From Thunnus maccoyii (Eukaryota; Chordata; Actinopteri; Scombriformes; Scombridae): a stretch of 64,000 nucleotides of DNA. Location of the stretch: contig NC_056547.1 in assembly GCF_910596095.1 (NCBI RefSeq), positions 5,910,147 to 5,974,146 on the forward strand, in the 5' to 3' direction. The notes beneath the pieces are model-generated. The model ran no database searches. It saw only the letters and a list, made by a program, of their open reading frames with translations, and was not told where the DNA came from. Positions 1 to 45,924 of this stretch are shown one piece after another (positions within the stretch are counted from its first letter, which is position 1; each line of letters begins with the position of its first letter). The translations under genes were made by a program, and so were the position numbers.

Positions 1-1303
1 AGAAGGACACTGGAAGTGATGAGAGAGCAGCCGATACACAGCAGAGCGACAGGTTTCTGGTCTGCTGGGAGGGTCTTAGTGCCTTCATTGGATAAGGTGA
101 TCAGGAGGAGGAAAGAAGTCTAAAAAAAAGAGTAAATGAAAAAGTTGTTATGATTTAATCAATTAATTAATACTGCAATGTGAAATGAGTTGCTGCTACA
201 TAGACAATGACTGGGTATAGTACTTTGTGGAATTGAGTTATTAGGACAAAATTAAGTTTATATTCTAGGCTTGAAAACAGGTACGGACAACAATTTATTT
301 ATTTATAAGCATCTTAGAGTACCTTGAAAAGCACTTTTTAAATAAAATGTATAATAATAATAATAATAATAATAATTATCATCATCATCATCATCATCAT
401 CATCATAATAATCATAATAATCATAAAAATACATATATTTTAAAGAAAAATATATTAATGAAAATAACAAACCTTGCTACATAGCGCCAATCCGAAGACA
501 AGCACAGCGACTACACATAATGAGATTAACTTCAGCAGCTTTATTAGTTTCCAGGGCGTATGTTCATCTTCGATGACTGGGACCTCTCGACAGGTATCCC
601 ACGGCCTCCTGATTAAAGATACCAAAATGTCAAAGTCTGAGGTAGGAGGGTAGGTAGAAAATTAGTAAGATAACAAATATAGATATAATTAAAAATAATA
701 ATACATTATGTAATAAATAGTTAAATACAGATACATACAGTATAAAAATATTGATAGATATAGATAAACATAGAGATATAGATATAGATGTAGATATAGA
801 TAGATATGAAGTGGAAACCATAGTAATGTTAAAAAATAGCCTATACAGTTTTTAAAAAAGTGTATTATTTGAAAATACTGCAAATGATTTGTATGTATAA
901 ACGTAATCCAATAAATTTTGCTTTCCATATCTGTAATCACTTTTTTCCAATTGTGAATTCCTCAAAATAATAAAAATCTAAAGTAAAAAGGAATGAATAT
1001 CTTTTGACATTTTCTGCTTTAAAAGTGCATAACTTTTTTACATTATATTAAAATTTAAATAATTGCAACTAATAAAAAATATAAAATTACAACAATTTTA
1101 CAACATTAAAGGAATGAAGTGAATTAGGTGTTAGTTAACTATAAACAACGAAAATTAATAATATTCCATTATTTTTATATGTTTAAAATTTCATTGTTAT
1201 TTTTATGATTATTAATTAAATAAACTGCTTTTTGGCAAGTTTATTTAATTTTAAAAAAGTTTTGAGCATATACTTACTTGGGCATATCTCTGTCTTCCTC
1301 CAT
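1..1303 (-). CDS. chs1: chitin synthase, copy A (5' exons only, gene continues past left edge)
   Basis: The 5' end of a membrane chitin synthase (GT2 family, UDP-GlcNAc polymerising). Three exons are visible: 1278-1303 (putative start, MEEDRDMPK), 473-636, and 1-119 (cut by the window edge). Exon 2 encodes the cytosolic N-terminal motif [11 protein letters not shown], which resembles the WDVFR segment of insect chitin synthases, followed by a first hydrophobic helix ending in LCSK. Exon 3 continues with [13 protein letters not shown]. Sequence is nearly the same as copies B and C. No stop or frameshift is seen in exons 2-3. The 26-nt first exon does not join exon 2 in frame by a single splice (see findings), so the N-terminus is uncertain. 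Catalytic exons lie outside the window, so it cannot be said whether this copy is complete. Confidence 0.8.
350..428. repeat. (ATA)n/(ATC)n simple repeat in chs copy A intron 2
   Basis: Runs of ataata followed by atcatc triplets. The same intron position in copy B (18805-18870) has a shorter and differently phased version, and in copy C it is replaced by (TA)n. The site is therefore an unstable microsatellite that mutated independently after duplication. Confidence 0.8.
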
Positions 1304-1391
1304 GATGATTGTTGCAAATGGAATACCTTTGATTGAAAGGCAGCTTATTAAGGTTAGCGCCTGTAGCTATAACTCATCACACCTGAGCAGG

Positions 1392-1397
1392 TTTATA
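1392..1397 (-). promoter_or_regulatory. TATA box of chs copy A
   Basis: Reads GGCTATAAACC on the minus strand, 89 nt upstream of the putative start ATG. The whole neighbourhood is conserved in copy B at the same spacing. It supports the short 1278-1303 exon as the true first exon. In copy C a small deletion removes it. Confidence 0.55.
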
Positions 1398-2776
1398 GCC
1401 AGGCTCGTCATCAAATGACAACACCCAGAGTAGTGGGTGCAGTCGATCCAGGTGAACAGAATCACTCTGTCCCAGCATATGAAAGTGGTTAAACTTAGAT
1501 TCCTATTAGCCAATTAGGTTAAGAAAAACTACAATTAATACACTATTAACCAGGAAATGTAAATAAAAAAGTAACCATTCCTGTTTGCAGCAGTCAAATA
1601 TGTGTATTAGATGTGTTGTTTCTGTGGAGGCATACATAGTATGCAAACTTGAGGTTTTAATTTTGGGAAAGTGTGAGAAAACAGGGAGACACTCTCCAGG
1701 TCTGACTGAGGTGGGAACAGTATTCCACCCATGTGGAGTCAGAAAAGAGATGTGAAGGTGATGAGCAAGTTGTTGGAAATGAGGGAGGGACAAACAAATG
1801 GCATAAGTCACATAGAACAGAGGTTGAATAATGACCTGGATGTGTGCCTGAGGTAATTATGCCACCACAAATGACTGGGACTGGACTGTAATATAGACCT
1901 GGGAGTCTTCATGCAGCGTCAGCATCATTACGCAAGGAGTATACCCAACTTGGTACATCATTAGAAAGATTTTTTCATTAATCAAACTCTTGAGAGTTAT
2001 AGTAAGTCTAGTGGTCCCTAGAGGCTGCAACAGTCGTTACTTCCCCCAATGTTGTAGTGTTCCACCATGTCTACACTGAACGCATTTCAGCAATGTTTCT
2101 CAGTTGTCCATCAGTCTAGGATGAAAAGCTTTACCAGTTGTGAGGTGAAAAAAATTAAAATATCCTAAGGAAGTTCAAAGCTCATGGAGAGTCTAAAAAA
2201 AAGGTTCATCCTCTGAGGAGCGATCTGCACATAAGATTGTAACATTACTCGTCTTAGTTTATTGGGGTACTGTACGGGCAATATTTTTGTAAATGTCTTG
2301 CCAAAGTGTTGGCCAAAGATGGCTTTTAATTGAACTTATAGCTGCAATTAATCAATTCTTTTTTTATGCTGCCTGTTTAATGCTCTTTATGCTGCCTTTT
2401 GCATCAGCTTGTCTCAATGAACAAAGAGCAAACCTAATCTATTAAAGTTTCAGAAGGAACAGAGAAGTGATCTGTGATTGGTCAATGTATCAGCTTATAT
2501 GACTACAGCCAATGGCACACAGCCACAAGACATATATGTACATACACATTTATGTTAGACAAGAGTCACACCTCCCCAGGACTCAGGAAACCAAGAGCCC
2601 CAAGCCTTATATGGCCTTTGCACCTTTAACATGTTCCGCTTACACCAAGACCCAGAATGTCACCTTATTTGGGCCTAAGCCAGGATGGAAGAAAAGGACT
2701 GGGCAAGTGACATGCACACAGAAAAAAAAGCAAAGTAGCAGTGATCTTACTTCCACAGTTCTGTACACTAAAATTA

Positions 2777-4394
2777 TTAGGGCCTGAGCCCCAAAGGGGC
2801 GAAGACCCTATTGTATTTCCTGTGTTTGTTTGTTTGTTTCTTCTTTATTATTCCGCCACTTCAACCCTAAATTTGACCCCCTAAACATGCTAAAAAACTC
2901 ACCAAATTTGGCAGCCACATCAGGTCTGGTGAAAAATTTGATAAAATGTAAAAATTAACCCCCAAAGTGCCAAAATGTGCTCGAGAGCACCACCTATGTA
3001 TCTAATATGGCCACCATGGCCATATGGCCATAGGAATGTCGTAGAGAGATCAAACCAAAACTCAATTATTTGTCTCATCAAGACCTACAAATCATATGCT
3101 GACACCCCTCACCTAAATGCAACAGGAAGTCTGCAATATGCTCATCAAAATACCAATTTTGGACCCCCAAGAAATGCTATCTCCTCCTAGGGCGTTAATG
3201 GTATCAACTTCAAACTTGAATTCATGACTTATGACACTGTGCTGAACAAAAGTTGTTAAAAACTTTGTAATAACTCGAACGATTTAGATATTATAAGCCC
3301 TGAAAGTTGTAGTGCCACATCACACCTTACAATGTAAACCAAAGGGGAGGCAATCTCTGGGCATGGACTTTGTGTCAAACAAATGGTTCTGATGTCTAAA
3401 CTATAACTCTGACCACTTTGAAACCTGTATCAATGGATTCGCGATGAAATTTCCTACAAAAAATGTAATTTTTAATGTAGGATTTGGCCAAAGTCATGGG
3501 ATTTATGAGGATATTTCACAAGAAGAGTGACATTCTCCTCTCCAACTGAGAGAGAGAGGGAGAGAATGGGGGAGGGATGGTTGTGGGGGTTGAATGGAGC
3601 TCATTGAGTGAGAGTGACAGTTTAGTGATAACATGCTGCAGAAAAATAAAATCAAAACTAAAATTTGTAGCTCTGTACTGCAGTTTTTCCTTTATTAGGG
3701 CCCAAGCACCTAGCGGTTCGCTCACACTCTCCATTTAAATATATGAATATTTTTCTGTGTCCAGCTGCAGTTACTTATTGTCTCTACATACCTGACAGTA
3801 CACATTTCAATCAAACTTTGACCAGGTCATGTGGGTTAAAAGTCTTTACTTTTCTAAAAATAAACTCGATGAAAATTAGGAAATTAATTTGTTTTACACA
3901 CAAACTCATCAAGAGTTTTCCTTACTAATTGAAATTCAAGTGAATGGGCCCAAAACTTGCATAATTTTGATGCCACAGGTGTGAGCAAGACAGACATGTC
4001 TCACCCTGCAGAAAATTCTCATCCTTGCACCATTGAGATCTAATGCTTCTCCATGACAGAGAAAGTTGCTATAACTTTATTGTACATGCTCCAGTCTGCA
4101 CCAAACTTTACATGTTTGATAAGAGTCACGGCCTGAACACATCTACATAACAATATTACATCAGTGATGCAAACTGGCTGAATAGCACCCCCCATGAAAT
4201 TTCAGCGAAGCAGCCCCAGCAGCAGGCAAAACAGTGGACAAAGGAAGTGATGTTTATCTCCTTCTTGCATTGCCTGAAAACAGCCCGGGTCTGAAGACAT
4301 CTACATGCCTGTGACAGAAGACCTTTGATTGCGTCGTGGCCCGAAGTGCGCAAAGGCGCGAGGGCCTGTTCAACGCTGCTTGCAGCTTTAATCA
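2777..4394. mobile_element. about 1.6-kb interspersed repeat, block 1 only
   Basis: Begins TTAGGGCCTGAGCCCC and ends GAGGGCCTGTTCAACG followed by TTGCAGCTTTAAT. It interrupts sequence that is continuous in block 2 at 21750 (aaaattat joined to attatcatctg). An internal 'agggcccaagcacctagcgg' at about 3697 repeats the left-end style, so it may be two nested or head-to-tail fragments. No long coding frame is seen. It resembles an abundant percomorph repeat that starts with GGGCC(C)GAGC; the class is not established from sequence alone. Confidence 0.6.
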
Positions 4395-5157
4395 AGATTA
4401 TCATCTGATCATCTCAACACTTTTAACCATTATAGCAGACAATATTTATTATCCATAAGATATTTCATGGAAATCTAGTCAGTAGTGTCCAGATATCTTG
4501 CTCTGGATCAAAGTGTTCAGGTGAAACAATGAAAAAACACATCAGTTTCCTGATAAGAGTGTATATTCACCGGAGCATGTTTGGGGCCTAAGTCCAGCAG
4601 AAAACTTGTGGCTTCTGGAAGAACTCGACAGCAACAAGGAAATTTCACTGGAAAAATCCAGGAATGAGTTTAAATAGTAATTTGAAGAGAGGAAAAGCCT
4701 GAAACCAACTGTAAATAATAATAATAATGTCAAGAATAACAGCATTAACCCTCAGGCTAACTCTATCTTTTACATCATTCAGAGTTACTCATTGTTTAGC
4801 TCAACTATGAGGCATTTTTCATTTCCTGATTATCTGGGCCTTGAAAAGTGCCTCAACCTGAAGAATAAAATGTGAAATATAGCTGCAATATTAAAGCAAC
4901 CAAAACAGGAGCTGAATCAAATTTAGCAAGTATGCCACTGTAATTTTACAAGATGTAAAATTACTCAAAGACTAACCACTAACCACTGACTAACCACTGT
5001 CTTGACAAAATGATTTTGTGAAGTGTAGATTTTGCAGTTAACTTGTTTTTTATTCTATATTGTTGCATTCAAATGTGTTTACTGCTAGTTTACTCCTGTT
5101 CTTATCCTCTTGCCTTTTTATCTTTATGTTTTATTTGCAGTTTTAATGTTTGTCTAA

Positions 5158-5285
5158 ATGTTTAGCTTTTGCTTTTGTGACACTTGTTTTTATTGTCCTG
5201 TGTACAGAGGGCACCCATACAAAAGGGAGCGATTCTGCTCTCATTGGGCCTCCCTGTATGAATAAAGGTTGAATGAATGAATGTA
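5158..5285 (+). mobile_element. LINE-like 3' tail with GAATGAATG microsatellite
   Basis: Sequence 'gagggcacccatacaaaagg ... cctccctgtatgaataaagg' followed by tandem GAAT units. This has the form of a truncated non-LTR element 3' end. Related copies: 24303-24357 (block 2) and 44788-44882 (block 3). Confidence 0.5.
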
Positions 5286-5454
5286 CAAAGATATGAAACC
5301 TCACATACTGTATACTGTATATATGTAAATGCCACGTTTTTACAGTCTGTATACTTTGTGTTTTAATTTTAGTTATTCATGAGCCACATCAAAGACAAAC
5401 CTACATCACATTGTTTGAACAATGTGCTGTTTCAAGTTTATTTTGTCATTTCAG

Positions 5455-5604
5455 GCGATCACGAGGAGGCACATCCACATCCATAAATTATTATTATGTG
5501 AACAAGATTATGAAAAAATGCATGCAGATTGCTGTCTTGTTCCTATTTCTTCTTTAATTCTACATGGACATGACTATGATTTGACCAAAAATGGTCTTCC
5601 TCAG
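5455..5604 (+). pseudogene. orphan exon-like segment, block 1
   Basis: A 150-nt stretch is bounded by a polypyrimidine acceptor (ttttgtcatttcag) and a consensus donor (CAG|gtaaag) and is open in one frame, ending HGHDYDLTKNGLPQ. Its homologue at 24525-24675 in block 2 keeps both splice sites but is one base longer, so the open frame differs. No family is recognised. The likeliest reading is a decayed exon of a gene that was carried in the duplicated unit. Confidence 0.35.
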
Positions 5605-5635
5605 GTAAAGGTGAAGATTTTAGTACACCAGGGCT

Positions 5636-5840
5636 ACAGCTAGAGATTATTTTCATCATTGAATAATCTGGCAATGATTTTCTCAATCATTTTGTCTATA
5701 AAATGTCAGAAAATAGTGTTATAGTTATAGTTATATAACTTATACTTATACTTTACTAATAGTTATATATAGTTATAATTTTCTAGAGTCAAAGGTTCAA
5801 ACGTCAGTTCAAAACCCCAAAATATTGAGTTTACTAAAGT
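5636..5840. mobile_element. decayed TCGATTAA-type foldback element
   Basis: Contains 'gattattttcatcattgaat' and 'ttgtctataaaatgtcagaa', hallmarks of the abundant teleost foldback repeat that recurs in slc39a7 introns. The homologue in block 2 is at 24713-24890. Confidence 0.5.
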
Positions 5841-7311
5841 TTGAGAAAGAGAGCATTAATCATCACATTTGAGACACTGAAACCATTTTTTTTATGCTGA
5901 TACAGCACATCTCATGCAAATTTGTGATGTTTTGGCTGGGTGTTTGGGAGACGTTGTTGGCAGTGATTGTTTCAAGGTCTGCTGCACTTAATCCAATCCC
6001 TGCACTTCCTTTTCCAACATTGATGAGTGTATTTCTGTCATAAGTAATACGTGCTTCAGTAATAAAGGTGAAAAAATAGCAAATTAAAACAAAAATGTGT
6101 CAAAGTTTTAGTTAGCTACTGGTCGCTGTATCTACATGTGCTGTTGTTGCCATGTATTTCAGTTTTAAGCCATTTATTGTTCTATAAATCTGTAATAAAA
6201 CTTTAAATCCTTTTGACACGTTGTGCGGTGATCCTGTTCTAGAGACTGGATTTGATTCAGTTGACACATGCGGTGTAATGTTGAAACTGATGTTCTAGTG
6301 TTTATAATAGCACACAGTATGTTTTTACATTGTTTTGATTTGTTGCGGTATCATAAAGAAACACCTCTTGAGGCTAAAACTAACAACCCGTGGCCTCTTC
6401 AGTTTGTTTGTATAGAGGGTGTGTTGATGTACCAGAGCATCAAAGCATAAACACCGTTTCAGGTTTTCTAAGACACCAGCATGCGTCAGAGGTTATGTCT
6501 TCGCTTCATGTGTGGTTTAAGTGTGTAGGTATGTCTACAGTTTTCACCTAATTATCATTTCTTTAATATGCTTTTGCTGCTCTCCAGTGGCATACCGAAG
6601 TTTCTGCTTGTATGCAAATGTGTGTATCTTTGGAGCTCAACTCCATATTTCTTCATATATGTATACATGCTGTATGTTTATTGAATGTGTGTTTGTGTGT
6701 GTGTGTGCAGACTTTTATTTGGATGGCAACTTATTAAAATCTCATGAAAATTCAGATGTGCAGATGAAAAGTTTTCTGGGATGGAGCATATCCAGAAGAT
6801 GTCCGCAGATGATTACGGTGTTAATTCACTGTTAACTTTTAAAGATCTTACTGTTCTCCACAGCACACGACATAGGTTCCAGGCTTGTGGTTAATACTGC
6901 GTACATACATATATCAAATAAAGAGACATATATTGCAGCATTCTTAATGGAAATGTAGTTAATTACAAGTTGGGTCTTGGGTCTACTTTGGCCATCGTCT
7001 CTACTGGGTATGAACATTGTGCACTGAGTAAATTGTTGAGAGTCAGATAGATAGATATATTGCATAATTACAATCTTAAAATTGTTAAAAATTCCCTCAT
7101 TGAGTCTCAACGGACAGTGTTTTTCTGTTCAGCTGCAGTGGAAAGTGAAAAGAGGGAAACAGTAACTTGTAACTTGTGGTCTTTCTGATGAATTAAAGAG
7201 CTAAAAAAAAAAAAAAAAAAAACAGAAAATCATCAGATAATACTAATCCAGTCAAAGGATGTTTTTTCATAACCTGGAAATCCAAACCTTCTAAAAAATG
7301 GTTTATCACAA

Positions 7312-8605
7312 GGAACAAAACGTCTTAACCCATTTTGAAGTATGACTCATGAGAAAGTGTCACTGTCACAAATGACATGACTAATGTCATGACTATTTCT
7401 GAATGTCAGTCACATTTATTATGGCCAAACATGCTCACACAAGTATAGATGCATGCGATTGTATGTGTGTGCAAAACTAAATATACCCTTTAATTATATA
7501 TACTGCGTGTTCTGATGAATTATGACTATACCTATAATTTGCAGTCACATAGGAACTTCACCTGTCTCATATGTCACTCCTTTGTTGTTATGGCTGTTTT
7601 TTAAGAATAATTAAAAATAATGTTGCGGGACTAGAGGGTGTAATTAACAGCACTTATTCCAGTTTTGCAAGTTTGGCAGCCAGAGGAATTCGTTTAAAGT
7701 GAAAGAGAGAACAAAACGTCTTAACCCATTTTGAAGTATGCCTCGTGAGAAAGTGTCACTGTCACAAATGTGACTTTTCCTCTGTGTTGAGAGAAGATAT
7801 TGTAGCAGTCTTCAAATCAATGTCAATGGACTTGTTTTTTAAGTCAGCAGTTGTCTATTGCAGTAAGAATAGGATCGGGACCTTGCCCGATCCATTGCTG
7901 AACCTTTGTTTTTTTGGGCACATGGCTTTTCAAAACATCCCACTGCACTCTGTTTAAATAGGAAAACAACAGTATGGTGAGCAAATGAACCACTGAGTTA
8001 ATAAATGAAGAGTAGCTACCAGTTTGAAGGGCCAATCCACTGATTTTACACTTTATGAAGTTGAGTTTATGTTTAATTTGAAGAGTACTACTCACCTTTG
8101 ACAGCAGTTGTACAATTTCTTTTGTAGCTCTGTTTGAAGTTTGCTAAGTTTGAAAAACAAAACAAAAAAAAACCCCAAAACAAACAGAAAAGAAAAAAAA
8201 AAATGTATATATGTGCTGGTTTTTCATTGCATAACCTTTTTGTTGTGGATAACACGGGTAAGTGTTGCTTTGCATTCATGACTAATATCTATTTCTGAAT
8301 GTCAGTCACGTTTATTATGGCCAAACATGCTCACACAAGTATAGATGCATGCAAATGTATGTGTGTGCAAAACTAAATATACCTTTTAATTGTATATGCC
8401 GCGTGTTCTGATTAATTATGACTACACCTATAATTTGCGGTCACATAGGAACTTCACCTATACTCATATGTCACTCCTTTGTTGTTGTGGCTGTTTTTTA
8501 AGAATAATTAAAAATAATGTTGCCAGACTAGAGGGTGTAATTAACAGCACTTATTCCAGTTTTGCAAGTTTGGCAGCCAGAGGAATTTGTTTAAAGTTAA
8601 AGTGA
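7312..8605. repeat. local tandem duplication A-B-A'-B' in block 1
   Basis: Segment A (7312-7385, 'cgtcttaacccattttgaag') recurs at 7709-7775. Segment B (7400-7702, 'ttattatggccaaacatgct') recurs at 8297-8600. Block 2 has only the A' version (about 26775-26967). A poly-A-rich stretch sits between (8160-8205). Confidence 0.75.
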
Positions 8606-8834
8606 GAAGGTGTCAACACTAAGATGATCTAATAAAACACAATAAAGGGTCTGATGGGGCACAGAGGGTCGGATGAATACCTTACAGATTGATTCATCAC
8701 TGAAATTTTATTTCATGCCACCATCAATTATGTTGTTGAGAAATATGTATTTACTGCAGTTTACAATCTACAGTAAATACACTGGAAATGTTCTTGTAAT
8801 AAAAGTATAGTACATTGTGATATTTTGCTAATCA

Positions 8835-9322
8835 TTGACTGTATATAAGTATGGACGACGCGCTTCCACTTCCTGCCACTATGCAAAAGTTAAGACATAA
8901 TATCTCCTTTCCAGGAGTTGCCATCTTGCTTGTGTGATGTCATTTGGAGCAGGGGTCTGCGCAGTAGAGTCGGGTGGTCCTCCAGCCACCTGACGGAGGT
9001 TTGAGAGTGGCTGTCACAGCTGTCAATCATGACGTCAGACCCCCATTCTATATGGTCAGATAAGTAATTACAAATACACTTATCAGAAAAATGATTACTT
9101 TGAAAAACATCAGCATGATAAGAACTACCTAAAACCATCTTTGGGAAAAATGTATTTGACGGGTACTTTGATTTCTTAGTTTGGCTCAAGTCCCATCCAC
9201 TAACATGGAGGGGGCAGGACTTATGACCTATACTGCAGCCAGCCACCAGGGGGCAGTCCAAATGGTTTGGCTTCACTTTTGGGGAGCTGTCATGACGTCC
9301 ATCTTTATATACAGTCTATGTT
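8835..9322. mobile_element. foldback/MITE element with GACTGTATATAA termini
   Basis: The left end 'gactgtatataagtatggac' and right end 'gtccatctttatatacagtc' are inverted copies, giving a 490-bp non-autonomous DNA-transposon-like unit without coding capacity. It is absent from the matching position of block 2, so it was inserted or lost after duplication. Confidence 0.65.
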
Positions 9323-9589
9323 TGAGATGAATAAAGTCACATTCTCACAAATATTTCTTGATTCACAATAAAAAAGAAAAAAGTTCCTAACAGTGTGTTT
9401 ATACCATGTGAAACAATTTGTTTACTTCTCCTTTCTCTCACAAATGTCTAAACAATATTCAGCCATTTTACCGTCGCCCATTTACTACTACAAAATGATG
9501 AGCATTTATTTGTGTGCAGTTTTTGGAATAAACCAGCTCAAAAACATTTGTTTAGTTATTTAAAAAAAAAAAGAAACTTTGCAAAGTGC

Positions 9590-13600: not shown

Positions 13601-16600
13601 ATGGACATTGACACCACCAACATTAGAAATGCATATATGACACTCATGACTTCTGCAATAATGATCTGAGTGTCTGTCTTGAGCTTGAAGCAAAGACCCA
13701 GGTAGATGGCAGGAGGTATCACAGACAGGACCAGAGCACTGCTCACATTGATGTTGAAGATGAAGGTCAAACATCCTGAAATACCAAAAAGACGGGCCTG
13801 CGTTTTACATATTCTACTTGCATTTTATTTGCATACATTTCAATAAAAATTCAGTTGGTTTCAAAATTATATTTTGCAAAGTATTATGTCCTCATCTACA
13901 AAAATGAGCCTAACCTGCAATCAAAAGGCAGATGGTCGCGGGTGCCAGTATAGCTGATGCCAGGGCAAAGAGCTGGTAGAACATGAAGAGTTTGGATATG
14001 GACCGGTTCTTCTTGGAAATCAGGCTGGTGGCTCCCAGAAGATCCACAACGTTGGCCATTGTGGATGGTCCCCAACGCCGACGCTGATGGTGCAAAGAGC
14101 CATTAGCATGTGATACAATGATGTGAAAAAATACAAGCACTGCAGAGGGGCACAGTTTTTCTGGCTAAATAATGACTTTAAACTAGTGAGATCTACAGCC
14201 TGAAATCTAAATGATTTTAGAAAGAAATGTGTTATTTTTTTTCCAAGTCTTCGTGTGTAATCTATGGCTTGCTGCATCACAGCTAGTGAGATTTTGATCA
14301 GTCCCTCTACCTGGTTGTACAGTTCTTTGAAGTCCTCCGGGGCATTAGTGTAGGCATCAGATGCTGCATTGTACTCCACTCTCCATCCCTGCTTCAGCAG
14401 CAGCGTACACAGCCAGCGGTCCTCACCTGCAGGGTACAGAGAATTAGTTTAAATAAAGGAAGGAGAGACGAATCATGAGGGATGTCATCAAGACTGAGTT
14501 CCGAGACAGGAAGTCTAAGAAACGGCATCCATTACCTTGGTCATACTGAATGTAGTGGCTCGCCTCCATGGACTTGGTAGAGTATCTCTTCATCACATTG
14601 TCGTCCATAAGTGCCTCTGCTCTGAACAAGCTGAAGCAGCCGGGGCTGCATAGCACGCAGCCAATAACATGCTCCGCCGTCTTCTGTAGCCAGTGGCTGA
14701 CGGCATACTCAAACTTCTGAAACCATACTGCAGGACCTGCCCAGGAAATACAGAAGCTTTATTAACCTCAGTGCAACAATGCTAGTGAAGTGATTGTTGG
14801 TTTTTCAGATACAATGGTTGCTAAGAGGTATTTGTTATTCATGCTTAAAGCTTTACCTTAACCCCCCTCTGTTAAACCTCTCAACAGTTTTGTACAGTAT
14901 TGTACTATGTGCCAACCTGAACCAGTGGGGTGAATCCTGCCACATGCTGCCCCAACATGTGGGTACATTTTCAGGCGATCGATGAGCAGCATCACAGCAG
15001 CCGGCTGGAAGTCTGTGTCCCCGTCCAAAGCAAGGAGGTAGGTGTTGTGCTTCTTTTTCTGAAGGAAAATGCACAGTTTGCTCTGTCTTACATTTATGCC
15101 ACAGCCATTTCATTGAGGAATACTGCCCATACATGTAAATGCTCATTAAAAAGTCCACAAAATATATACACAACATTTACAGTGTGTCAAAAGTTGGCTG
15201 TGTGTTCTTACATGTGCCTTTCTTCTTTTCTCACCTGGACCTCTGCTTGCAGTTCTTTCTCATCCTCTCCTCTCTGCCAGCGTCCGTAGTATTTGCTTGT
15301 GAGTTTCCAGCCCAAAAGATAGTAAAGATACATGACCTAGGAAATATCAAATAACAGTTAAAACAAATACATCTGATGGTGCATTGTTGAGTAGAAAAGA
15401 TTTCATAACGGTATGAGTCTCCAGCAAGTCAGTTTCCTACCTGAGACCACCTCTTCTTGTGGCGGATGAGCTCTTTGTCCTTGAAGTGGATTGTGATGAT
15501 GTTGCCATGAGGCATGGTGACCAGAAGACGACCTCCATATGGCGTCCTTATGATCTTCTGATCAGGGATGTGCTGTTGCTTTCTGAAGATATTCTGATCG
15601 ATGTTCATGAAGATGCTGATAACAGAGAACAGGTAATAATGATTTGTACTTCATGAAAAATGTGTTAACTACTACTTTTGTTAAGCTACAATCTATAACC
15701 TGTGGTAATCTTTAAGACTTAAAGCTTAATGCACCATTATTGCAGACAATTTTTAAGATGGTTCTTACCCATAAACTTCTGTGAGGATTTTCACAAGGTT
15801 TATTGCATATTCATTGAGTTCAGACCCGTGATGCCCCTGATGCCCTTCAACAGCATTGAATGCGTCATCAAAGTAGATATGAGCCTCAAAGGTGAAATCA
15901 TTGATCTTCTCTGGCTCTTTCTTTGGTCTGTACTTGTCCAGTCTGCAGTGATCAGAAAATGACAAAGAGGAACTGTGAGGAAATCCACTGTGAGGAAGTC
16001 AGTGATGAAGTTGTTACCAATGTACTGCTGAAACTGGGTGAGCTGAGACCTTAACCCTTAGTAGATGAAATCTGTGACAAAAACATCTCTGATATCCAAA
16101 ATGGTAGGTTAACTCATTTAACAGACTTTTCCTGCTTTTACATTATTAAAAAATTCTTACTATAAGTAGCATTTCTTCAACTGAACTTCTGGACTCAGAC
16201 TCTCTTGGTAATATCCTTAAGTGTTCTAAATCATGAAACTGTATACATGTAATCTCTAGAAGTTTATTCTTTTCTCTTACATTTCTTTGGTGTGAGGGAA
16301 TTCAAAGAATAATTTACCTCAAGGAATCAACAGAGAAAGAAACTGATGAAAATGAAGGTAATATTAGATAACAGCAAAACGACAGAGCATAGAGTCTGCA
16401 CAACTCACCTGAAGATTGAAATAATGATTTTAATCATCTCATCGTAGGTCTCGTGCCACATGGTTGCACACAGATATACCATTACTGGCTCAAAGGCTGC
16501 ATAGCCTCTGAAATTAAAAGATTTGCAGATTTGAGATTTTTTTTTTTAGAGGACACACAATTCAATCCCATCTAGATAAACGTCTTCACGGTCCAAACAC

Positions 16601-19116: not shown

Positions 19117-19176
<60 letters not shown>

Positions 19177-19768: not shown

Positions 19769-19856
19769 GATGATTGTTGCAAATGGAATACCTTTGATTG
19801 AAAGGCAGCTTATTAAGGTTAGCGCCTGTAGCTATAACTCATCACACCTGAGCAGG

Positions 19857-19862
19857 TTTATA
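19857..19862 (-). promoter_or_regulatory. TATA box of chs copy B
   Basis: CTATAAACC on the minus strand, 89 nt upstream of the start ATG at 19768, in the same context as copy A. A start of transcription near 19830 and a short 5' UTR are inferred. Confidence 0.55.
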
Positions 19863-20934
19863 GCCAGGCTCGTCATCAAATGACAACACCCAGAGTAGTG
19901 GGTACAGTTGCTCCAGGTGAACAGAATCACTCTGTCCCAGCATATGAAAGTGGTTAAACTTAGATTCCTATTAGCCAATTAGTTTAAGAAAAACTACAAT
20001 TAATACACTATTAACCAGGAAATGTAAATAAAAAAGTAACCATTCCTGTTTGCAGCAGTCAAATATGTGTATTAGATGTGTTGTTTCTGTGGAGGCATAC
20101 ATAGTATGCAAACTTGAAGTTTGCATACTAGTCTCCAGGTCTGACTGAGGTGGGAACAGTATTCCACCCATGTCAGAAAAGAGATGTGAAGGTGATGAGC
20201 AAGTTGTTGGAAATGAGGGAGGGACAAACAACTGGCATAAGTCACATGGAACAGAGGTTGAATAATGACCTGGATGTGTGCCTGAGGCAATTATGCCACC
20301 ACAAATGACTGGGACTGGACTGTAATATAGACCTGCGAGTCTTCATGCAGCGTCAGCATCATTACGCAAGGAGTATACCCAACTTGGTACATCATTAGAA
20401 AGATTTTTTCATTAATCAAACTCTTGAGAGTTATAGTAAGTCTAGTGGTCCCTAGAGGCTGCAACAGTCGTTACTTCCCCCAATGTTGTAGTGTTCCACC
20501 ATGTCTACACTGAACGCATTTCAGCAATGTTTCTCAGTTGTCCATCAGTCTAGGATGAAAAGCTTTACCAGTTGTGAGGTGAAAAAAATTAAAATATCCT
20601 AAGGAAGTTCAAAGCTCATGGAGAGTCTAAAAAAAAGGTTCATCCTCTGAGGAGCGATCTGCACATAAGATTGTAACATTACTTGTCTCTAAGTAGAAAT
20701 GTTGTTTGATGGCACTAGAGGAAACATCACCAGTTTACTAAAAGTACAAGGATTCATCCTCTGGGGAGTATGAATATTCACATTTTATTGGAGTACTGTA
20801 CGGGCAATATTTTTGTAAATATCTTGCCAAAGTGTTGGCCAAAGATGGCTTTTAATTGAACTTTAGAGCTGCAATTTGTCATTTCTTTTCTTTATGCTGC
20901 CTGTTTAATGCTCTTTATGCTGCCTTTTTGTGCT

Positions 20935-22707: not shown

Positions 22708-23165
22708 AAGCAAGGACGGGCTCACAATTATTTTTCTTGCCATAATCATTCCTCCTGTTCATATTGGCTATTAGAAGATCCCCTCATAATACACTCACAA
22801 TGTAAGTGATGGGGGACAAAATCCACAGTCCTCCCTCTGTGCAAAAATGCACTTAAAAGTTTATCTGAAGCTAATATGAAGCTTCAACCATCCAAATTCC
22901 AGTCAAATCAAGTAGATATCTTTCAACATTACAGTGTTTTTGTGCCAAATCCCTCTTTTTCATACTATACTTCCACCACAGATCAACTTTACAGTGCATT
23001 TTTGCACAAAATGTCTGTGAGGACACACCGTGGATTTGATCTTTTAATAGCCAGTATAAACAGGAGGAATGATTACAGCGAGGAAAACCTCTTTCAGTGT
23101 TTATATGGACACCTGACTTGACCTGTTTTCAGACAGACTTGAAAAACTGTGAATCTATCCTTTAA
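22708..23165. mobile_element. palindromic foldback element (family P), block 2
   Basis: Part of an approximately 630-bp family with long inverted arms ending in CCTTTAA. Full-length members are at 55965-56595 and 57527-58158. This copy lacks part of its centre and outer left arm. Diagnostic strings are 'tgtaagtgatgggggacaaa' and 'agtagatatctttcaacatt'. Confidence 0.7.
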
Positions 23166-28347: not shown

Positions 28348-31300
28348 TTACACCAGAGTGCCAACGCCGTGACGTCTGTACAACATGACAGGCATCTCAT
28401 CATCACTGTCCTCTGGCTCAGAGTCTGAGTTGGAGTTGGAGATGGACTTGACCTGGGAGGAATTTGAATGAACATCAGTACATGTAAATGCCACCACACA
28501 TACCACATATCACACCTGGAATACCTCAAGCAGGTGACTAAACCATTTGTTCTAGTTTAATGACAGTAGCAAAAGGGGTGCAGTTTGACGTATGTCAGTA
28601 AATTAAGTCTCCACTGGCTTCATTAATGAAAGAAAAGTATCTATAGGACAATTGAATGTTCAGTACTGTGATTAGTGTCTTACGTAGCACAACCCTGAAT
28701 AATTGATTGGGAGGTACATCCTAATCAAGTTGTTCTTATAATCAATTCTATGAATAACAACAAATGCTGTTTGATATAGGACATATCAGCTCAGCTGCTC
28801 GCTGTGCAAATGCGGATAGAATTACCAGTAGAAAGCATGATTGGTGACCTTTGTTAAATTGGTAGAAAACAAAGATGTGTCTGATTGTCCTGTCAGTTTC
28901 CTGTTTTTTACATTTTTTTTGTTGTTGTTTTTTTATTGTCGCTTTGAGGCCTAAATGATTGCTTTATTGGACTTCATTTACAGGACTTTCTCAATACTCA
29001 AGCTAAGTATTTGGAACAACATTTTAATATGGCCTGAATTGAAAGTGTACGTCTGAATCTTATCTTTAAATAACTGAATAGTAGAGATGGCACAGCTTTG
29101 TGCCATTTGCCAGCAGTACTATAAAACCAAAGACTATAGATAATTATTATTACTGGTAATTCTAGTATCAGTACAAGTGTTTGTTGTAGTAACTGTAACT
29201 ATAGTAACTGTGAGTGTTGAGTAGAAGTCAAAAAAGTAGCAACAGTAGTAGTAGTAATAACAGTAACACTTTTTTAGTTATAATATCAGTAGTAATTTAC
29301 CTTTTTGCCTGGTAGGTATGAATCTTGGCTCTCAGGCTTTGATTCTCTGGGTTCTGTGTCCATAAAGGCTATATAATGGATCAGGGTGTATATTCTGGAT
29401 AAAAACAGAACAGAAAAGTTATATTTTTAACATTTTTAACATTATGAGCATCAAAAACATGTTGACAACTGAATAGTGATTTGGTGTTTTGTACCTGTGG
29501 TACAGCATGGCAAGGAACTGGATCACAACTGACACAGCGAAGCCCAGAATGAACATGAAGGAAATGGGATCGATCACAATGTTTTCTCCAGTGTATTGCA
29601 GTTGGAGGTCGACTTTGGGGATCTGGATGGACAAGGACATGTTGAAGAGCTGGAGGGTAAAGGTCGCCACCAGCCACATGGCATTGAGGGCGAAGAAGGC
29701 GAAGTTTATCTGTGGGTTATGACAAAGATAAGATTCATTTAATTTCATTGCACACTGGTTTCCTGTTAAGTATGTAACAGTTCCTCACACTGACTGTACC
29801 TTGTTTCTCAGCTCTCTCAGGTCACTGGCGATTTTTTTCTGTCTCTCTTTGTCATCAGGCAGAGGTTTCAGGTACTTTTCCTGCAGCTCTTTCCAGAATG
29901 CCTCCTCTTCCTGCAGAGAAACACACAGCTCAAATCATTATTCTGAACAAACATCATGTTTAAGCTGCGTACTCATATAGGTAGGGCAGGGAACTAGCTT
30001 TGTGTATTTATTTACTGGTATTCCCAAAGATATACTATCGCTGTCACTGTTTGAGTTTAGCAGCAACAGTATAAAATAAGCGTCAAATGAATGAAGCATA
30101 CCACAGAAGAATAACATAAGGCAGTTAGGGTATTTTTAATATTTGTGCATGCATGTACAGTCAGTTTTTGCCTGCTGTACTGAAACTGAATACGATGAGC
30201 ATCATTTAGACATTAGACAAAGGTGATTAAAATATCATTTGAGGCAGATAATCATACTTAAATGATAAAACAAGACATACGCACCTGGCTGAGCGTGTCC
30301 TCCTGCAGGTGCATGTCAACAGACAAAGTCTGTAAGTCTGTGACCCAACCTGAAGAGAAGAGCAACACAGGAGAATATTAGACAACGTGACATCTGAGAG
30401 TGTGTTTGAAACCAACATTTTTGCAGCAGATTCAGACTTTTACAGATTTTTGCCAAATCCTCAGGACTTACACTGGGCAGGATAATTGAAAGAAGGCTCC
30501 TCTTGCCTGAAACGCAATTGGAAAGATAATCAGTATCATCTCACACTTTTCATAGGTGACACGCTATATTTCAATTGGTGTTTCAACTTAAGAAAAATAC
30601 TTCTGCTCTTCCTCAAGGATCTTTATGTCCTCCACAATGGTGTTTTGAGGATGAGGTTCAGGCTGTGTGGGCTCGGGGACCAGGTTGTCCTGGCTGACAG
30701 TGAGCTGTTCTCCATTAGCTCTGTGGCTGGATTTTTTACATTTGGCCCATGAGAAGAAACGTGCGAAGGTGCTTTTGGCTGCAGGCATGAAAATTTGTTT
30801 TTAAGTTCAGTCAGCTCAAGCACTAATACTTGTTTGGTGTTACTCTATGAATGTAATAAACTTGTGTCTTTTTTATGTTATCTTATCTTAGTTTAATCTG
30901 CTATCTACCTTTCTGGGTTGTTGTTTGTGGCTTGGTGGTTGTAGGAGGGGCGGCTCCAGCGGCAGGCTTTGTCTCCCTGGTGCCCCAGGAGACGTTGTTC
31001 ATGTTGACCATGGAGTAAATAGTGAGCAGGAGGTAGGCACTGGGGATACAGATGATGTAGAGAAAGCCGTGGAACACCAGTGGAAATTCCTGTGGATGCA
31101 TTATCGCAGTGATGATGTAAATGATCGCCATGGACACGACAAAGATGCTGTTGGGTGTCAAGATGGTTTTGTCCTTCACCATTGAGCCTGATGGAAAGTA
31201 GATGGGTGGAGCAATCTTAAGGTTAAAGCAGCTTAAGGTAGGTCTTTATGTGCAACTAAAGTTGCTACATAAATGTCTACATAGTCTGTTTACGTTTAAC

Positions 31301-34300
31301 TCACTTATAATGGTCATTGACACCACCAACATTAGAAATGCATATATGACACTCATGACTTCTGCAATAATGATCTGAGTGTCTGTCTTGAGCTTGAAGC
31401 AAAGACCCAGGTAGATGGCAGGAGGTATCACAGACAGGACCAGAGCGCTGTTTGCATTGATGTTGAAGATGAAGGTCAAACCTCCTGAAATACACAAAAG
31501 ACGGGCCTGAGTTTTACATATTCTACTTTCATTTTATTTGCATACATTTCAATAGAAATTCAGTTGATTTCAAAATTATAGTTTACAAAGGATTATGTCC
31601 TCATCTACAAAAATGAACCTAACCTGCGATCAAAAGGCAGATGGTTGCGGGCGCCAGTATAGCTGATGCCAGGGCAAAGAGCTGGTAGAACATGAAGAGT
31701 TTGGATATGGACTGGTTCCTCTTGGAAATCAGGCTGGTGGCTCCCAGAAGATCCACAACGTTGGCCATTGTGGATGGTCCCCAACGCCGACGCTGATGGT
31801 GCAAAGAGCCATTAGCATGTGATAAAATGATGTGAAAAAATACAAGCACTGCAGAGTGGCACAGTTTTGATCTTGATCAGTCCCAGCACTCACCTGGTTG
31901 TAGAGTTCTTTGAAGTCCTCCGGGGCATTAGTGTAGGCATCAGATGCTGCATTGTACTCCACTCTCCATCCCTGCTTCAGCAGCAGCGTACACAGCCAGC
32001 GGTCCTCACCTGCAGGGTACAGAGACTTTGTTTAAATAAAGGAAGGAGAGACGAATCATGAGGGATGACATCAGGACTGAGTTCCGAGACAGGAAGTCTA
32101 AGAAACGGCATCCATTACCTTGGTCATACTGAATGTAGTGGCTTGCCTCCATGGACTTGGTAGAGTATCTCTTCATCACATTGTCGTCCATAAGTGCCTC
32201 TGCTCTGAACAGGCTGAAGCAGCCGGGGCTGCATAGCACGCAGCCAATAACATGCTCCGCCGTCTTCTGTAGCCAGTGGCTGACAGCATACTCAAACTTC
32301 TGAAACCATACTGCAGGACCTGCCCAGGAAATACAGAAGCTTTATTAACCTCAGTGCAACGATGCTAGTCACTGTTAGCTTTTCAGGTACAATGGTTGCT
32401 ATTAGAGCTATTTGTTATTTGTGCTTAAAGCTTTACCTTAACCCCCCTCTGTTAAACCTCTCAACAGTTTTGTACAGTATTGTACTATGTGCCAACCTGA
32501 ACCAGTGGGGTGAATCCTGCCACATGCTGCCCCAACACGTGGGTACATTTTCAGACGATCGATGAGCAGCATCACAGCAGCCGGCTGGAAGTCTGTGTCC
32601 CCGTCCAAAGCAAGGAGGTAGGTGTTGTGCTTCTTTTTCTGAAGGAAAATGCACAGTTTGCTCTGTCTTACATTTATGCCACAGCCATTTCATTGAGGAA
32701 TACTGCCCATACATGTAAATGCTCATTAAAAAGTCCACAAAATATATACACAACATTTACAGTGTGTCAAAAGTTGGCTGTGTGTTCTTCTGTGTACATG
32801 TGCCTTTCTTCTTTTCTCACCTGGACCTCTGCTTGCAGTTCTTTCTCATCCTCTCCTCTCTGCCAGCATCCGTAGTATTTGCTTGTGAGTTTCCAGCCCA
32901 AAAGATAGTAAAGGTACATGACCTAGGAAATATTAAATAACAGTTAAAACAAATACATCTAACAGTGCATTGTAGTAGAAAATATTTCATAAAGGTATGA
33001 GTCTCCAGCAAGTCAGTTTCCTACCTGAGACCACCTCTTCTTGTGGCGGATGAGCTCTTTGTCCTTGAAGTGGACCACAATGATGTTGCCATGAGGCATG
33101 GTGACCACAAGACGACCTCCATACGGCGTCCTTACGATCTTCTGATCAGGTATCTGCTGCTGCTCTCTGAAGAACTTCTCATCAATGTTCATGAAGTTGC
33201 TGATAACAGAGAACAGGTAATAGTGATTTGTACTTCATGAAAAATGTGTTAACTACTACTTTTGTTAAGCTACAATCTATAACCTGTGGTAATCTTTAAG
33301 ACTTAAAGCTTAATGCACCATCATTGTAGATAATTTTTAAGATGGTTCTTACCCATAAACTTCTGTGAGGATTTTCACAAGGTTTATTGCATATTCATTG
33401 AGTTCAGACCCGCGATGCCCCTGATGCCCTTCAACAGCATTGAATGCGTCATCAAAGTAGATATGAGCCTCAAAGGTGAAATCATTGATCTTTGGCTCTT
33501 TCTTTGGTCTGTACTTGTCCAGTCTGCAGTGATCAGAAAATGACAAAGAGGAACTGTGAGGAAATCCACTGTGAGGAAGTTAATGATGAAGTTGTTACCA
33601 ATGTACTGCTGAAACTGGGTGAGCTGAGACCTTAACCCTTAGTAGATGAAATCTGTGACAAAAACATCTTTGATATCCAAAATGGTAGGTTAACTCATTT
33701 AACAGACTTTTCCTGCTTTTACATTAGACAAACTTCTAACTATAAGTAACATTTCTTCAACTGAACTACTGGACTCAGACTCTCTTGGTAATATCCTTAA
33801 GTGTTCTAAATCATGAAACTGTATTCATGTAATCTCTAGAAGTTTATTCTCTTCTCTTACATATCTTTGGTGTGAGGGAATTCAAAGAATAATTGACCTC
33901 AAGGAATCAACAAAGAAAGAAACTAATGAAAATGAAGGTAATATTACATAACAGAGACAGAGCATAGAGTCTGCATAACTCACCTGAAGATTGAAATAAT
34001 GATTTTAATCATCTCATCGTAGGTCTCGTGCCACATGGTTGCACACAGATATACCATTACTGGCTCAAAGGCTGCATAGTCTCTGAAATTAAAAGATTTG
34101 CAAATTTGAGATTTTTTTGTTTAGAGGACACACAATTCAATCCCATCTCGATAAATGTCTTCAAGGTCCAAACACACCTTGAAGACTGAAAGATCTGACT
34201 TTTGATGATTCTTGCGAGGACCAAAAGTGGAGTATTACTCCTATGCAGACACCACACACTTACCTCTTCATTCTGTCTTTGGTCTGAATGTCAAATCGGG

Positions 34301-36325
34301 TGTTGAAGAGTAAGGACTGCTCGATAAAGGTTCCTTCATATAGCCTCCTGATGAACAGGTCCTGGGTCCTCTGGATACGATACACGTTGAGGTACCACAA
34401 GTGGAGGGTGGCCAACACAAGACCGAGCCACCAAGCCACTGCTGAACCTGAGGAAAGATCAACAAAACATTTAAGGAAAATTTCAGCTTCTGACATGATG
34501 AAATATTTTAGCATATTTAGAAAAGTGCAGAGCTTTCTAACATATCAGTGGTAATTTTAATTTCAGATTTGTGAAAATTGTGAACATGCAGCACTAAATA
34601 ACAAAATAAGCATGCAGGGTTACTTGGTGATAGGTCATTTCCATTTCTGTTTAAAAATAACTTCATCATGATACAAAGATACTGAGGCTAGATTTTTTTC
34701 TTTAAAGCAATGGTTCCTGCACACACCTGAGCACTGTGGCTGACAGGTATGTAGAACAAGGTGTGGCGGCCTTCAGAACCTCCACATTTGGTTAACATGT
34801 AAATTTAAAAAAAAGTTTTGGTCTGGTGACCCTCCTATGTGACCCTCATATTTATAATTTGTGCTAAATTACATTGTAGGTAATACCAGGCTCTAGTTTA
34901 TTACCTGATAGTAGGCCGATGTCAGTTATACTGGACATGTCCAGGAAGCACAGAGTGTGTGTAACATCTAAAACCAGATGTGGGAACACATTGCCATTCA
35001 GGCTTTGGTTTCTTGCATACACATATTCAGTGCAGTAGCCTGTGAAGTTGACACTTTCAGTCCCATTCAGACTTATTCTGTAGTCCTGATAGTAAACAAT
35101 AACAGGGATGATCAGCAGAGCCATCACAGCCAGAGAAGCCAGGTACAGAGGCAGGATGAAGCATCGTCGCAGGGCGTGCATCTTGCAGGCTGCAACTGCA
35201 AACCAGTGGCACAGTGCTGAGGAGATGAGCTGGACCCCGATGATGATGGCTATAATCCTTGTCTCACGAGTCGGGATGGAGGTCACTATGCCCCAGTCCA
35301 TCTTGGACAGAGGGACGTAGGCGCCAAGCACACAAGCAGTCACCACGATTCTGAGCAGGCTGGAGAGGATTTGTAGCATGTTCTGACACTTTGTCATGTC
35401 TCTGCAAAGTATCTTGAGGGAGACAGAGCCACTGTTCTCACTGATCAATCTGAAGTAGTTATCCCACCAGTTGAAAGACACCAAGAATGACCCACCAACA
35501 GCCAGACCGACCCAAATTGCCATCTTGGTATCATTTGGATCCTTCATAATGTATAAGACAAGGAACAGGATGTAACCAAGCAAAATGAGGATGAAGGCAG
35601 TGATGGATGGCAGCAGGAAGCGGTTTCTTTCTTTGGCAGTGCACTGGGCTACCACCTGGAGGAGTGCAGACAGGACGCCCACACCGTTCAGTATGGTCAC
35701 ATTGGTCACAATGTCCAAGTGTGGCATGGCCACTATGGTGAGAACTGCTGCACCCAGAGACACCAGGAACTCAAAGAACAGAACCTGAAGAAGAGGCAGA
35801 AGAAAGAGATAAAATTCAACTTGGTAAAGAAAAGGGCCAATATATCTGCCAGGCTCTGTCTTTGGCATCAGCTAAAGAGAAAAAAGAGTTAGGAAAAGTA
35901 GTTGGACTTTGTCTCACCAGGGCAGCAGTTGCTTTATTTGGCAGCTTTGATGTTTTGTAGCACGCTTTCCAGAAGCTTTTGAGGAAAAGAAGGACACTGG
36001 AAGTGATGAGAGAGCAGCCGATACACAGCAGAGCGACAGGTTTCTGGTCAGCTGGGAGGGTCTTAGTGCCTTCATTGGATAAGGTGATCAGGAGGAGGAA
36101 AGAAGTCTAAAAACGAGTAAATGAAAAAGTGGTTATGATCAGTTAATTAATACTTCATTGTGAAATGAGCAGCTGCTACATAGACAATGACTGGGTATAG
36201 TACTTTGTGGAATTGAGTTATTAGGACAAAATTAAGTTTATATTCTAGACTTGAAAACAGGTATGGACAACAGTTTATTTATTTATAAGCATCTTAGAGT
36301 ACCTTGAAATGTGCTTTATAAATAA

Positions 36326-36378
<53 letters not shown>

Positions 36379-36618
36379 GTATGAAAAATATGTTAATGAA
36401 AATAACAAACCTTGCTACATAGCGCCAATCCGAAGACAAGCACAGCGACTACACATAAAGAGATTAACTTCAGCAGCTTTATTAGTTTCCAGGGTGTATG
36501 TTCATCTTCAATGACTGGGACCTCTCGACAGGTATCCCACGGCCTCCTGATTAAAGATACCAAAATGTCAAACTCCAAGGTAGTCTGACGGAAGTAGGAA
36601 AGTAGTAATATAACAATA

Positions 36619-36664
<46 letters not shown>

Positions 36665-36689
36665 TACACATATATACACACACACACAC

Positions 36690-36739
<50 letters not shown>

Positions 36740-37231
36740 TAGGGATGTGCAGAGAGCGCAGTACAAAATTATTTGTATTTGTATTTGTATTCGAATAAAA
36801 GTGGACAGAGGCTTAAAAATCCTGTTTTTGTTTTTATTACGCTTTTAATTTTAGAAAAATCAAAGTGTTACAATAAGTGTTCATGAAGCTTGTTCATGAA
36901 GCGTGTGTCAGTAGCTCAACTTTATCTCTAGGGAACACTCCCAACTCTGGAAGTGATGTCCAAATTAGGAAATATGCATTATGTAGCAGGTGGATGTGAC
37001 TCCCGTCACTGAGACCTACTAATAGACATCACAGCGGAGCAGAGGAGAGACACTGAGATAGCGATGTAACCAACCTGCACTCTGGTATTTGACATGGTTC
37101 ATTTTTCTTCCTGAAAACAAATAATTTTTGAAATATTTGTATGAAACAAATATTCGTAAAAAAAAACAAACCAAAAAAAACACTATTTGTTCTTTGCCAA
37201 TAATGTATTTGTATTTGGGCACACCCCTACT

Positions 37232-37300
<69 letters not shown>

Positions 37301-39142
37301 AATTGATAGATATAAATAAGCACGTAGATGTAGATATATATGAAGTGGAAACCATACTAATGCTTAAAAATAGAAAGGGCCCTATCTTACGCTAAGCGCA
37401 GCACAAGTGTCTTCGTTATTTTAAGACCGACACAGTTGTCATATTCCCGTCCATTTGGCACTTGCGCCCATCAGAGCGCCCATGGGCGTGTTGGTCTAAA
37501 AGTAAGGTGTGGTCAGGTGCATTATCGGCGCATTGCTATTTTGAGGCAGCGGAGAGCGATTGCGCTATTGACCAACAAAAACCTGGTCTAAAGTCAATGG
37601 CGCAGTGTTTCATTGTTATTTTAAGGGCGCATTATCAAGACAGTAATGTGCGCCTACACAGGCGGCCGCACAACATACACTCTGCTTGTTACATACACAG
37701 GACGCGCAGCAGTGCACAAACATGCAAAAGGTAACAAATTAAAGGAATACAATGTGAAAGATTATCATTGTGTATATTAACACATTTCAAAATACATGTC
37801 ATAATGCTTAGTCATAATATTTATCAGAATTAACTAATCATAGTAATGATGGATTAAATTGTTTAATTATTTGACCAAATCATGGTAATACATGTAGGTA
37901 TTTAAACAACGGATCAGACACAGATCGACTCTCCTGCTGCATCAATACATGATGACATGAGGAACACATGAGGAAATAAATGAGGTGGAAACAAGTATTA
38001 AACTGAGGAAGGAAATAAATCTGGACAGCTCCTAGTTGCTGCCAGCAGCAGGATCAGCACCTTGTAGAGCTGATCAAGTCCTGATAACTGTGTTGATGAT
38101 TCTTTACATGATTACAATCAATGATTTAATTTTTGAACAATATTTAACAAATATTCTTTAACATTTTTGAGAGTACAGTGATCAGGTTTCCATACTTTCA
38201 GCAATTAAAACCCTGCTGATTTGACCTGTTACTCCATGACTGAACAAAACGATTTTAAAGAAACCAAAGCTGTAATTAAAAAAATAAACCTTTTCAAAAA
38301 CCAAACGAAGATAAATTTGCAACAAATTAATGAACAGGATCTTAAACTGGTGGTCTGTGGCCACGGGAGGGTCCAGGAGCAGCAGAGGCAAGTGTGCTCG
38401 TTATGGATCGTGCGCTTTCACTTTGCGCACGAGCAGATCCGTTTCCTCTGCAGAGAAGCGCTCCTTCTTCTCTACTTGGCAAATGAGCCATCATAATAGC
38501 AATCCGCCAAGGTGCAAGCGCACCTGACTCTTAAAGGGAATGGGAGATGACACTGTGATTGGTTTATTGCATGTTACGCCGAAAACACACCCATGATTAA
38601 TTAGGAGACTATGGACAACCCCTTTGAACCTTGCGCCTGACGCAGCGACCATTTTTCCGCCGTTAAAATAGCAAAAGTGGATTTGGACACACCCTAAATG
38701 CAATTGCGCCGTGCACTTCAGACCGTGCGCTTTACATCGTTAAAATAGGGCCCAAAGTTTTTAAAAAGTGTATTATTTAAAATACTGCAGATGATTTGTA
38801 TGCATAAATGTAACTATAAAATTTTACTCTCCATATCTTTAATTACTTTTTTCCCATTGTGAATTCCTCAAAATAACAAATATCTAAATTAAAAAGTAAT
38901 GAACGGAGCATCTTTTGACATTTCCTACTTAAAAACATGCATAACTTATTTATATTACATTAAAACTTTGAATAATTGCAAATAATAAAAAATATTAAAT
39001 TACAACATTAAAAGAATTAAGTGAATGAGGTGTTACTCAAAGCAACTATTAACAACCAAAATTAATAATATTCCATTATTTTAATATGTTGAATATTTCA
39101 TTATTATTTTCATGATTTTTAGTTAAATAAATTGCTTTTTTG

Positions 39143-39193
<51 letters not shown>

Positions 39194-39299
39194 ATTGGAG
39201 TGAATTACCAGCTATTGTCAAAAGCAGTTTATTTAATTTTTTTAAATTATTTTTTTAATGAGCGTATACTTACTTGGGCATATCTCTTTCTTCCTCCAT
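28348..39299 (-). CDS. chs1: chitin synthase, copy C (all catalytic exons intact)
   Basis: Paralogue of copy B. Exons, 5' to 3': 39274-39299, 36411-36584 (5' edge uncertain), 35918-36106, 34905-35784, 34264-34447, 33984-34082, 33353-33523, 33025-33199, 32821-32922, 32497-32638, 32119-32319, 31894-32009, 31624-31792, 31305-31484, 30909-31187, 30601-30778, 30472-30506, 30285-30349, 29800-29910, 29495-29709, 29301-29394, 28348-28452. LDGD, EDRW, QRRRW and SWGTRE are all present. Against copy B it lacks one residue in exon 7 (EPKIND for EPEKIND) and one in exon 16 (CKK for CCKK). Exon 8 differs at about ten residues. The last base of two exons is A instead of G (30601, 31305), with the GT donors kept. 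Intron 1 is 2.7 kb because of transposon and microsatellite insertions. The exon-2 acceptor used in copies A and B is mutated. Translation of the 5' end is therefore doubtful; the rest looks functional. Confidence 0.85.
36328..36379. repeat. (TA)n microsatellite, chs copy C intron 2
   Basis: TA dinucleotides replace the ATA/ATC triplet tract found at this position in copies A and B, about 30 bp from the exon-2 donor. Confidence 0.9.
36614..36735. repeat. compound (TA)n/(CA)n microsatellite, chs copy C intron 1
   Basis: TA runs flank an internal run of ca and cata units. It starts 30 bp from the exon-2 5' edge. Symmetric TA arms could form a hairpin. Confidence 0.9.
36741..37230. mobile_element. 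hAT-like MITE in chs copy C intron 1
   Basis: Ends are TAGGGATGTGC and, inverted at the right, GCACACCCCTA. The interior is shared in opposite orientation with 9984-10345. It is inserted between TA tracts. No coding capacity. Confidence 0.65.
37231..37298. repeat. (TA)n microsatellite, chs copy C intron 1
   Basis: Pure TA run directly abutting the right end of the hAT-like MITE. Together with 36614-36735 it suggests the MITE inserted into one TA tract. Confidence 0.9.
37376..38755. mobile_element. about 1.4-kb non-autonomous DNA transposon with GGGCCCTA termini
   Basis: Left terminus GGGCCCTATCTTACG and right terminus GTTAAAATAGGGCCC are inverted repeats. The interior is GC-richer than its surroundings, with repeated GCGCA motifs. 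It sits in intron 1 of copy C and is absent from the same intron of copies A and B. No transposase frame is seen. Confidence 0.7.
39144..39190. repeat. (TA)n microsatellite near chs copy C first exon
   Basis: TA tract about 85 bp from the exon-1 donor. Copies A and B have no repeat here. Confidence 0.9.
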
Positions 39300-45920: not shown

Positions 45921-45924
45921 AAAA

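Follow-up and report, generated by a model that had tools for sequence, protein, structure and literature searches.

A cluster of chitin synthase (CHS) genes linked to the major histocompatibility complex (MHC) was already published in 2007 for Atlantic salmon. In the MHC IB region of this fish, RXRB and SLC39A7 are separated by a 220-kb insertion that carries three copies of a chitin synthase gene at intervals of about 45 kb. The arrangement was explained as a single event with two later duplications and was unseen in the other teleost MHC regions then known (PMC1971071). According to a later survey, all salmonids except Salvelinus carry varying numbers of chitin synthase genes at this locus, northern pike has none there, and the salmonid class I gene UGA adjoins SLC39A7b (PMC7853315). 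We describe here a 64-kb stretch of DNA, the whole of which is called the window, that most likely comes from a ray-finned fish and very probably holds three or more chitin synthase genes in tandem, bearing motifs of teleost subclade II. Beside them lie a gene resembling SLC39A7 and a gene of MHC class I.

Like the Atlantic salmon array, this one shows three tandem chitin synthases beside an SLC39A7-like gene in an MHC class I region and, as with UGA beyond SLC39A7b in salmonids, the class I gene stands on the far side of the zinc transporter. Unlike in Atlantic salmon, with its 220-kb insertion, the spacing is about 18 kb rather than about 45 kb. RXRB, which by the salmon order would fall past the left edge, is not in the window, and the likeness to salmon rests on gene order, not on sequence comparison. 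The preliminary description of this DNA had called the gene numbers and the reason for amplification in fish poorly understood. In view of the three tandem copies adjoining SLC39A7 in print for Atlantic salmon (PMC1971071) and of the varying numbers in other salmonids (PMC7853315), a reading of such amplification as undescribed is not supported, and the array mostly adds an example to an arrangement already known from salmon. Animal chitin synthases, some of them in tandem, have also multiplied through duplication in the limpet Lottia gigantea which, unlike the fish discussed here, is a mollusc with many of its chitin synthases in myosin-domain groups (PMC3942024). Among the papers listed by title and abstract opening, with subscription papers, supplements and unlisted papers outside the search, those on MHC genomics retrieved together with chitin synthases all concern salmonids, and no MHC-linked chitin synthase array was seen outside that group. 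An expansion reported for Characiformes is weak evidence, as the Gene Ontology number printed with it belongs to another activity. In that 2026 paper, 'chitin synthase activity' stands among the expanded families in 4 of 5 carnivorous Characiformes (PMC13071475).

Self-comparison of the window (G+C 37.9%, zero N) revealed sequence repeated in direct orientation at distances of about 17.4-20.5 kb, a head-to-tail tandem unit of about 18 kb with the chitin synthase genes on the minus strand. The copies are the following.

39299-28348, minus strand: copy B, complete, 22 exons, 1312 amino acids, from the gene model, Pfam and motifs; exons include E1 39299-39274, E2 36546-36411, E3 36106-35918, E4 35871-34905, E12 32009-31894, E13 31792-31624 and E22 28452-28348
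19768-10610, minus strand: copy A, complete, 22 exons, 1314 amino acids, from the gene model and comparison with B
1303-1, minus strand: copy Z, a 5' end that holds exons 1 and 2 plus the initial 119 bases of exon 3; the left edge of the window truncates it

The gene models were built by hand from shared open frames and splice sites, and in these models every intron of copies A and B is GT-AG, with no stop and no frameshift. For exon 2, a start at an upstream CAG was rejected on alignment and sequence, because its phase disagrees with that of exon 1; the models use an acceptor further on (TTAATCAG), which fits in Z, A and B. When the window was searched with the protein of copy B (tblastn, E up to 1), all 37 pieces fell inside copies A, B and Z, and none was found between 39.3 and 64 kb, the 26-base exon 1 being below the detectable length. 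Three units in series thus stand as the preliminary description had it, with the correction that A and B alone are full and that the leftmost, Z (its 'copy A'), is a 5' end broken off within exon 3, which leaves the array open to the left, as it had also said. The repeated DNA continues past the right end given there, 39299, in the upstream flank of B, in patches, to about 45,011. Scans of the window gave no Rfam match at gathering scores and no tRNA, and in a viral contig search with protein B none of the 22 pattern matches was confirmed.

Pfam and PDB searches were run with the copy B protein, copy A standing by its 96% identity to B. Copy B matched Chitin_synth_2 (PF03142) with an E of 1.3e-31 and 110.3 bits against a cut-off of 27, and phmmer against PDB (E up to 0.01) returned seven distinct sequences, six chitin synthases and one hyaluronan synthase; the three alignments shown span the EDR, QRRRW and SWGT regions. 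Copies A and B both display what defines an animal (type II) chitin synthase of glycosyltransferase family 2, namely the DxD-type donor site (DGD), QKFEY, EDR (as EDRW), QRRRW and SWGTRE, so that the two sets of intact catalytic motifs first noticed are borne out. Kyte-Doolittle hydropathy, which is not a topology prediction, places hydrophobic segments at residues ~33-453 and ~865-1244, flanking the catalytic part, and, at the threshold applied, none from residue 453 to residue 865. No myosin domain was found in copy B (Pfam, E up to 0.001).

The motif CATMWHET is present at residue 514 in copies A and B alike. Among teleosts, the only group reported to carry CATMWHXT is CHS subclade II, whose genes are expressed in the pyloric caeca and the gut (PMC10234404). 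Because both full copies carry this one motif, the sequence points to an array of the gut-type subclade II. The subclade II genes chs1a and chs1b of salmon likewise have CATMWHXT, QKFEY, EDR and QRRRW; unlike the copies described here, they lie on chromosomes 28 and 1, an arrangement attributed to whole-genome duplication rather than to a tandem array (PMC10234404). Tilapia Om-CHS1 is likewise a fish chitin synthase, expressed in the gut epithelium; it is known from cloning and in situ hybridisation, and an array is unmentioned in the available parts of its description (PMC6109156). A role in scales or in sensory gels is possible, unsupported by the present evidence.

The preliminary description gave no genomic context. 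Beside the array stand two further genes.

48035-54606, minus strand: SLC39A7-like zinc transporter, Pfam Zip pieces at 48035-53113 and a His-rich first exon within 53998-54606
59553-61839, plus strand: MHC class I gene, with alpha 1, alpha 2 and immunoglobulin C1-set domains (Pfam)

Four Zip-family pieces have an E below 1e-5, three of them above the Pfam cut-off, and the name SLC39A7 is given to the putative transporter gene by resemblance. Its His-rich stretch contains a tandem repeat with a unit of 24 bases, present in 4.4 copies (54170-54275). The MHC class I gene lies about 5 kb away from the transporter gene, on the side of the latter's 5' end. The alpha-2 piece of the MHC gene matches MHC class I chains in PDB (among the 60 of 500 matches shown). 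The order is therefore chitin synthase copies, SLC39A7-like gene, then MHC class I gene. As far as it is visible, this order is the same as in salmonids, and it is a serious, if somewhat doubtful, possibility that the window belongs to the MHC class Ib region of a salmonid and holds an array of the published kind. The unit of about 18 kb, against about 45 kb in Atlantic salmon, argues the other way. Salmonid genomes are rich in Tc1 elements, and in the 64 kb no convincing Tc1-type transposase was found (one tblastn match of 48 residues, E 0.11), nor any match to Tc1 terminal repeats; the G+C content of 37.9% is also lower than is usual in salmonids.

Within the tandem array, the two complete copies were compared in their coding sequence. 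The proteins of A and B are identical at 1261 of 1314 aligned positions and differ at 53. Synonymous divergence (dS) is 0.0514 and nonsynonymous divergence (dN) 0.018, a dN/dS of about 0.35; dN is significantly lower than dS (p 1.4e-6), in a pairwise comparison that cannot assign the constraint to either copy. Two places in copy A stand out.

15441-15615, minus strand: exon 8 of copy A, an island of divergence from B
14084-14310, minus strand: intron 12 of copy A, with a weak donor and an insertion

In exon 8, A and B differ at 17 of 175 sites; over the remaining 21 exons they differ at 87 of 3770 (p 8e-7). The donor of exon 12 reads GTAGAG in A and GTGAGT in B, with scores of 5.4 and 12.3 in a simple matrix of our own. 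Intron 12 is 101 bases long in B and 227 in A, where an insertion of about 0.13 kb that has ATCTCACTAG at its two ends accounts for the extra length. The QRRRW motif is encoded jointly by exons 12 and 13, the weak donor of A lying immediately before its codons. By the same matrix, similarly low donors occur in both copies at E2 (5.5), E10 (4.4), E19 (4.8) and E20 (4.4), and at E16 the donor of A scores 4.7 and that of B 1.5. We also considered copy A as a read-through pseudogene and rejected this, as the open reading frame 14448-14020 crosses intron 12 but enters exon 13 out of frame; normal splicing reads the QRRRW codons in frame. Copy A is probably spliced, the exon 12 donor being its weakest point.

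The weakened donor and the insertion in intron 12, the merely moderate constraint that a dN/dS of 0.35 represents and the clustering of changes in exon 8 all weigh against an array of several working genes, and would suit a single working copy accompanied by young, decaying duplicates, with copy A possibly mis-spliced. We consider this unlikely: the frames of A and B run without interruption through coding sequences longer than 3.9 kb, the motifs are retained, and dN remains significantly below dS, although, being pairwise, this does not tell which copy was constrained. Both complete copies look functional at the sequence level.

The array of at least three genes is moreover not uniform in its divergence, as seen in the following upstream regions.

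39300-39409, minus strand: proximal upstream region of B, reading TTTATAAG in place of the TTAATAAG of A and Z
19769-20890, minus strand: upstream region of A, from sequence comparison with Z and B
1304-2400, minus strand: upstream region of Z, counterpart of the segment of about 1 kb in A
39486-45011, minus strand: upstream flank of B, outer edge of the amplified unit

The proximal upstream region of B differs by 15.6% from Z and by 17.4% from A (167 aligned sites, among them those of exon 1 and of the beginning of intron 1). About 1 kb of A (~19,860-20,890) is common to Z, in three pieces at 93-98%, but only 41 bases of it match the flank of B. Patches of homology at about 82-93% connect the flank of B with the DNA upstream of A, as far as 24489, and upstream of Z, as far as 5419. 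At noncoding sites, divergence is 3.3% between Z and A in the 5' region, 3.8% between A and B in the gene body, and about 10% between the 5' flank of B and both others. A and Z thus share one type of promoter region and B has another, and the copies are mosaic, A combining a Z-like 5' region with a B-like body. Because divergence differs between 5' regions and bodies, these comparisons point to unequal crossover or gene conversion among the copies. The values of 3.3% for Z/A and 3.8% for A/B are compatible with a single age (p 0.23). One unequal crossover behind all the divergence was rejected, since the 8.1% of the distal spacer misfits it.

Assemblies are known to contain false tandem duplications, and the similarity of the A and B bodies (about 96% at noncoding sites, with long BLAST pieces at 94-96%) could suggest a false duplication by the assembler or uncollapsed haplotypes, of which the latter had been named in the preliminary description as a possible refutation, but either is very improbable because a diploid gives two haplotypes and here three units stand in series, divergence is uneven (3.8% in the body, 7-10% in the flanks, with a dS of 0.051), the spacers differ by kilobase-scale segments (offsets jumping from 18,951 to 17,364 and 19,337), and there are two promoter types in a sequence with zero N.

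Several further repeats were observed in and around the array. Two inverted copies of a sequence of about 310 bases, 98.7% identical (41725-42034 and 45614-45922), lie in the outer flank and may stem from a recently inserted mobile element. A dispersed family of about 150-250 bases has members both in the spacers of the array and close to the MHC gene (22712-22990, 41428-41708, 44513-44664, 56039-56262 and 57833-58090). The array flank also contains, at 43278-43313, a short, imperfect AGGGTT array of 6 copies with 86% matches, AGGGTT being the vertebrate telomere-type unit. Just upstream of the copy B promoter, on the plus strand at 39537-40171, are open frames that resemble the C-terminal end of a reverse transcriptase of a long interspersed nuclear element (LINE).

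The tandem array and its mosaic copies suggest the following course. Local duplication would have created the copies, and later unequal crossover or gene conversion may have rearranged them among themselves, joining in copy A a Z-type promoter region to a B-like gene body and leaving the outermost copy B with its diverged promoter. Each full copy is predicted to encode a membrane-embedded family-2 glycosyltransferase that would polymerise UDP-N-acetylglucosamine on the cytosolic side, the chitin being extruded, putatively, through the transmembrane part of the enzyme. Expression would most likely be in the gut epithelium, for a peritrophic-like lining. There the copies may raise dosage, the two promoter types may permit regulatory differences, and recombination may hold the bodies alike.

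Tentatively, and with a confidence that stops just short of an even balance, we propose that the fish is not a salmonid, that the linkage of chitin synthases to MHC and SLC39A7 predates the salmonids or arose twice, and that recombination keeps the gene bodies alike under two promoter types, with dosage and regulatory divergence serving gut-barrier defence from within a region of immune genes. Chitin made by fish is thought to be a barrier of the gut lining, and the number and control of its genes are poorly charted. In so compact an array, two intact full copies with two promoter types and partly homogenised bodies offer a natural experiment on dosage versus regulatory specialisation. If the fish is indeed not a salmonid, the array would challenge the published single-insertion account of the MHC-linked chitin synthase genes.
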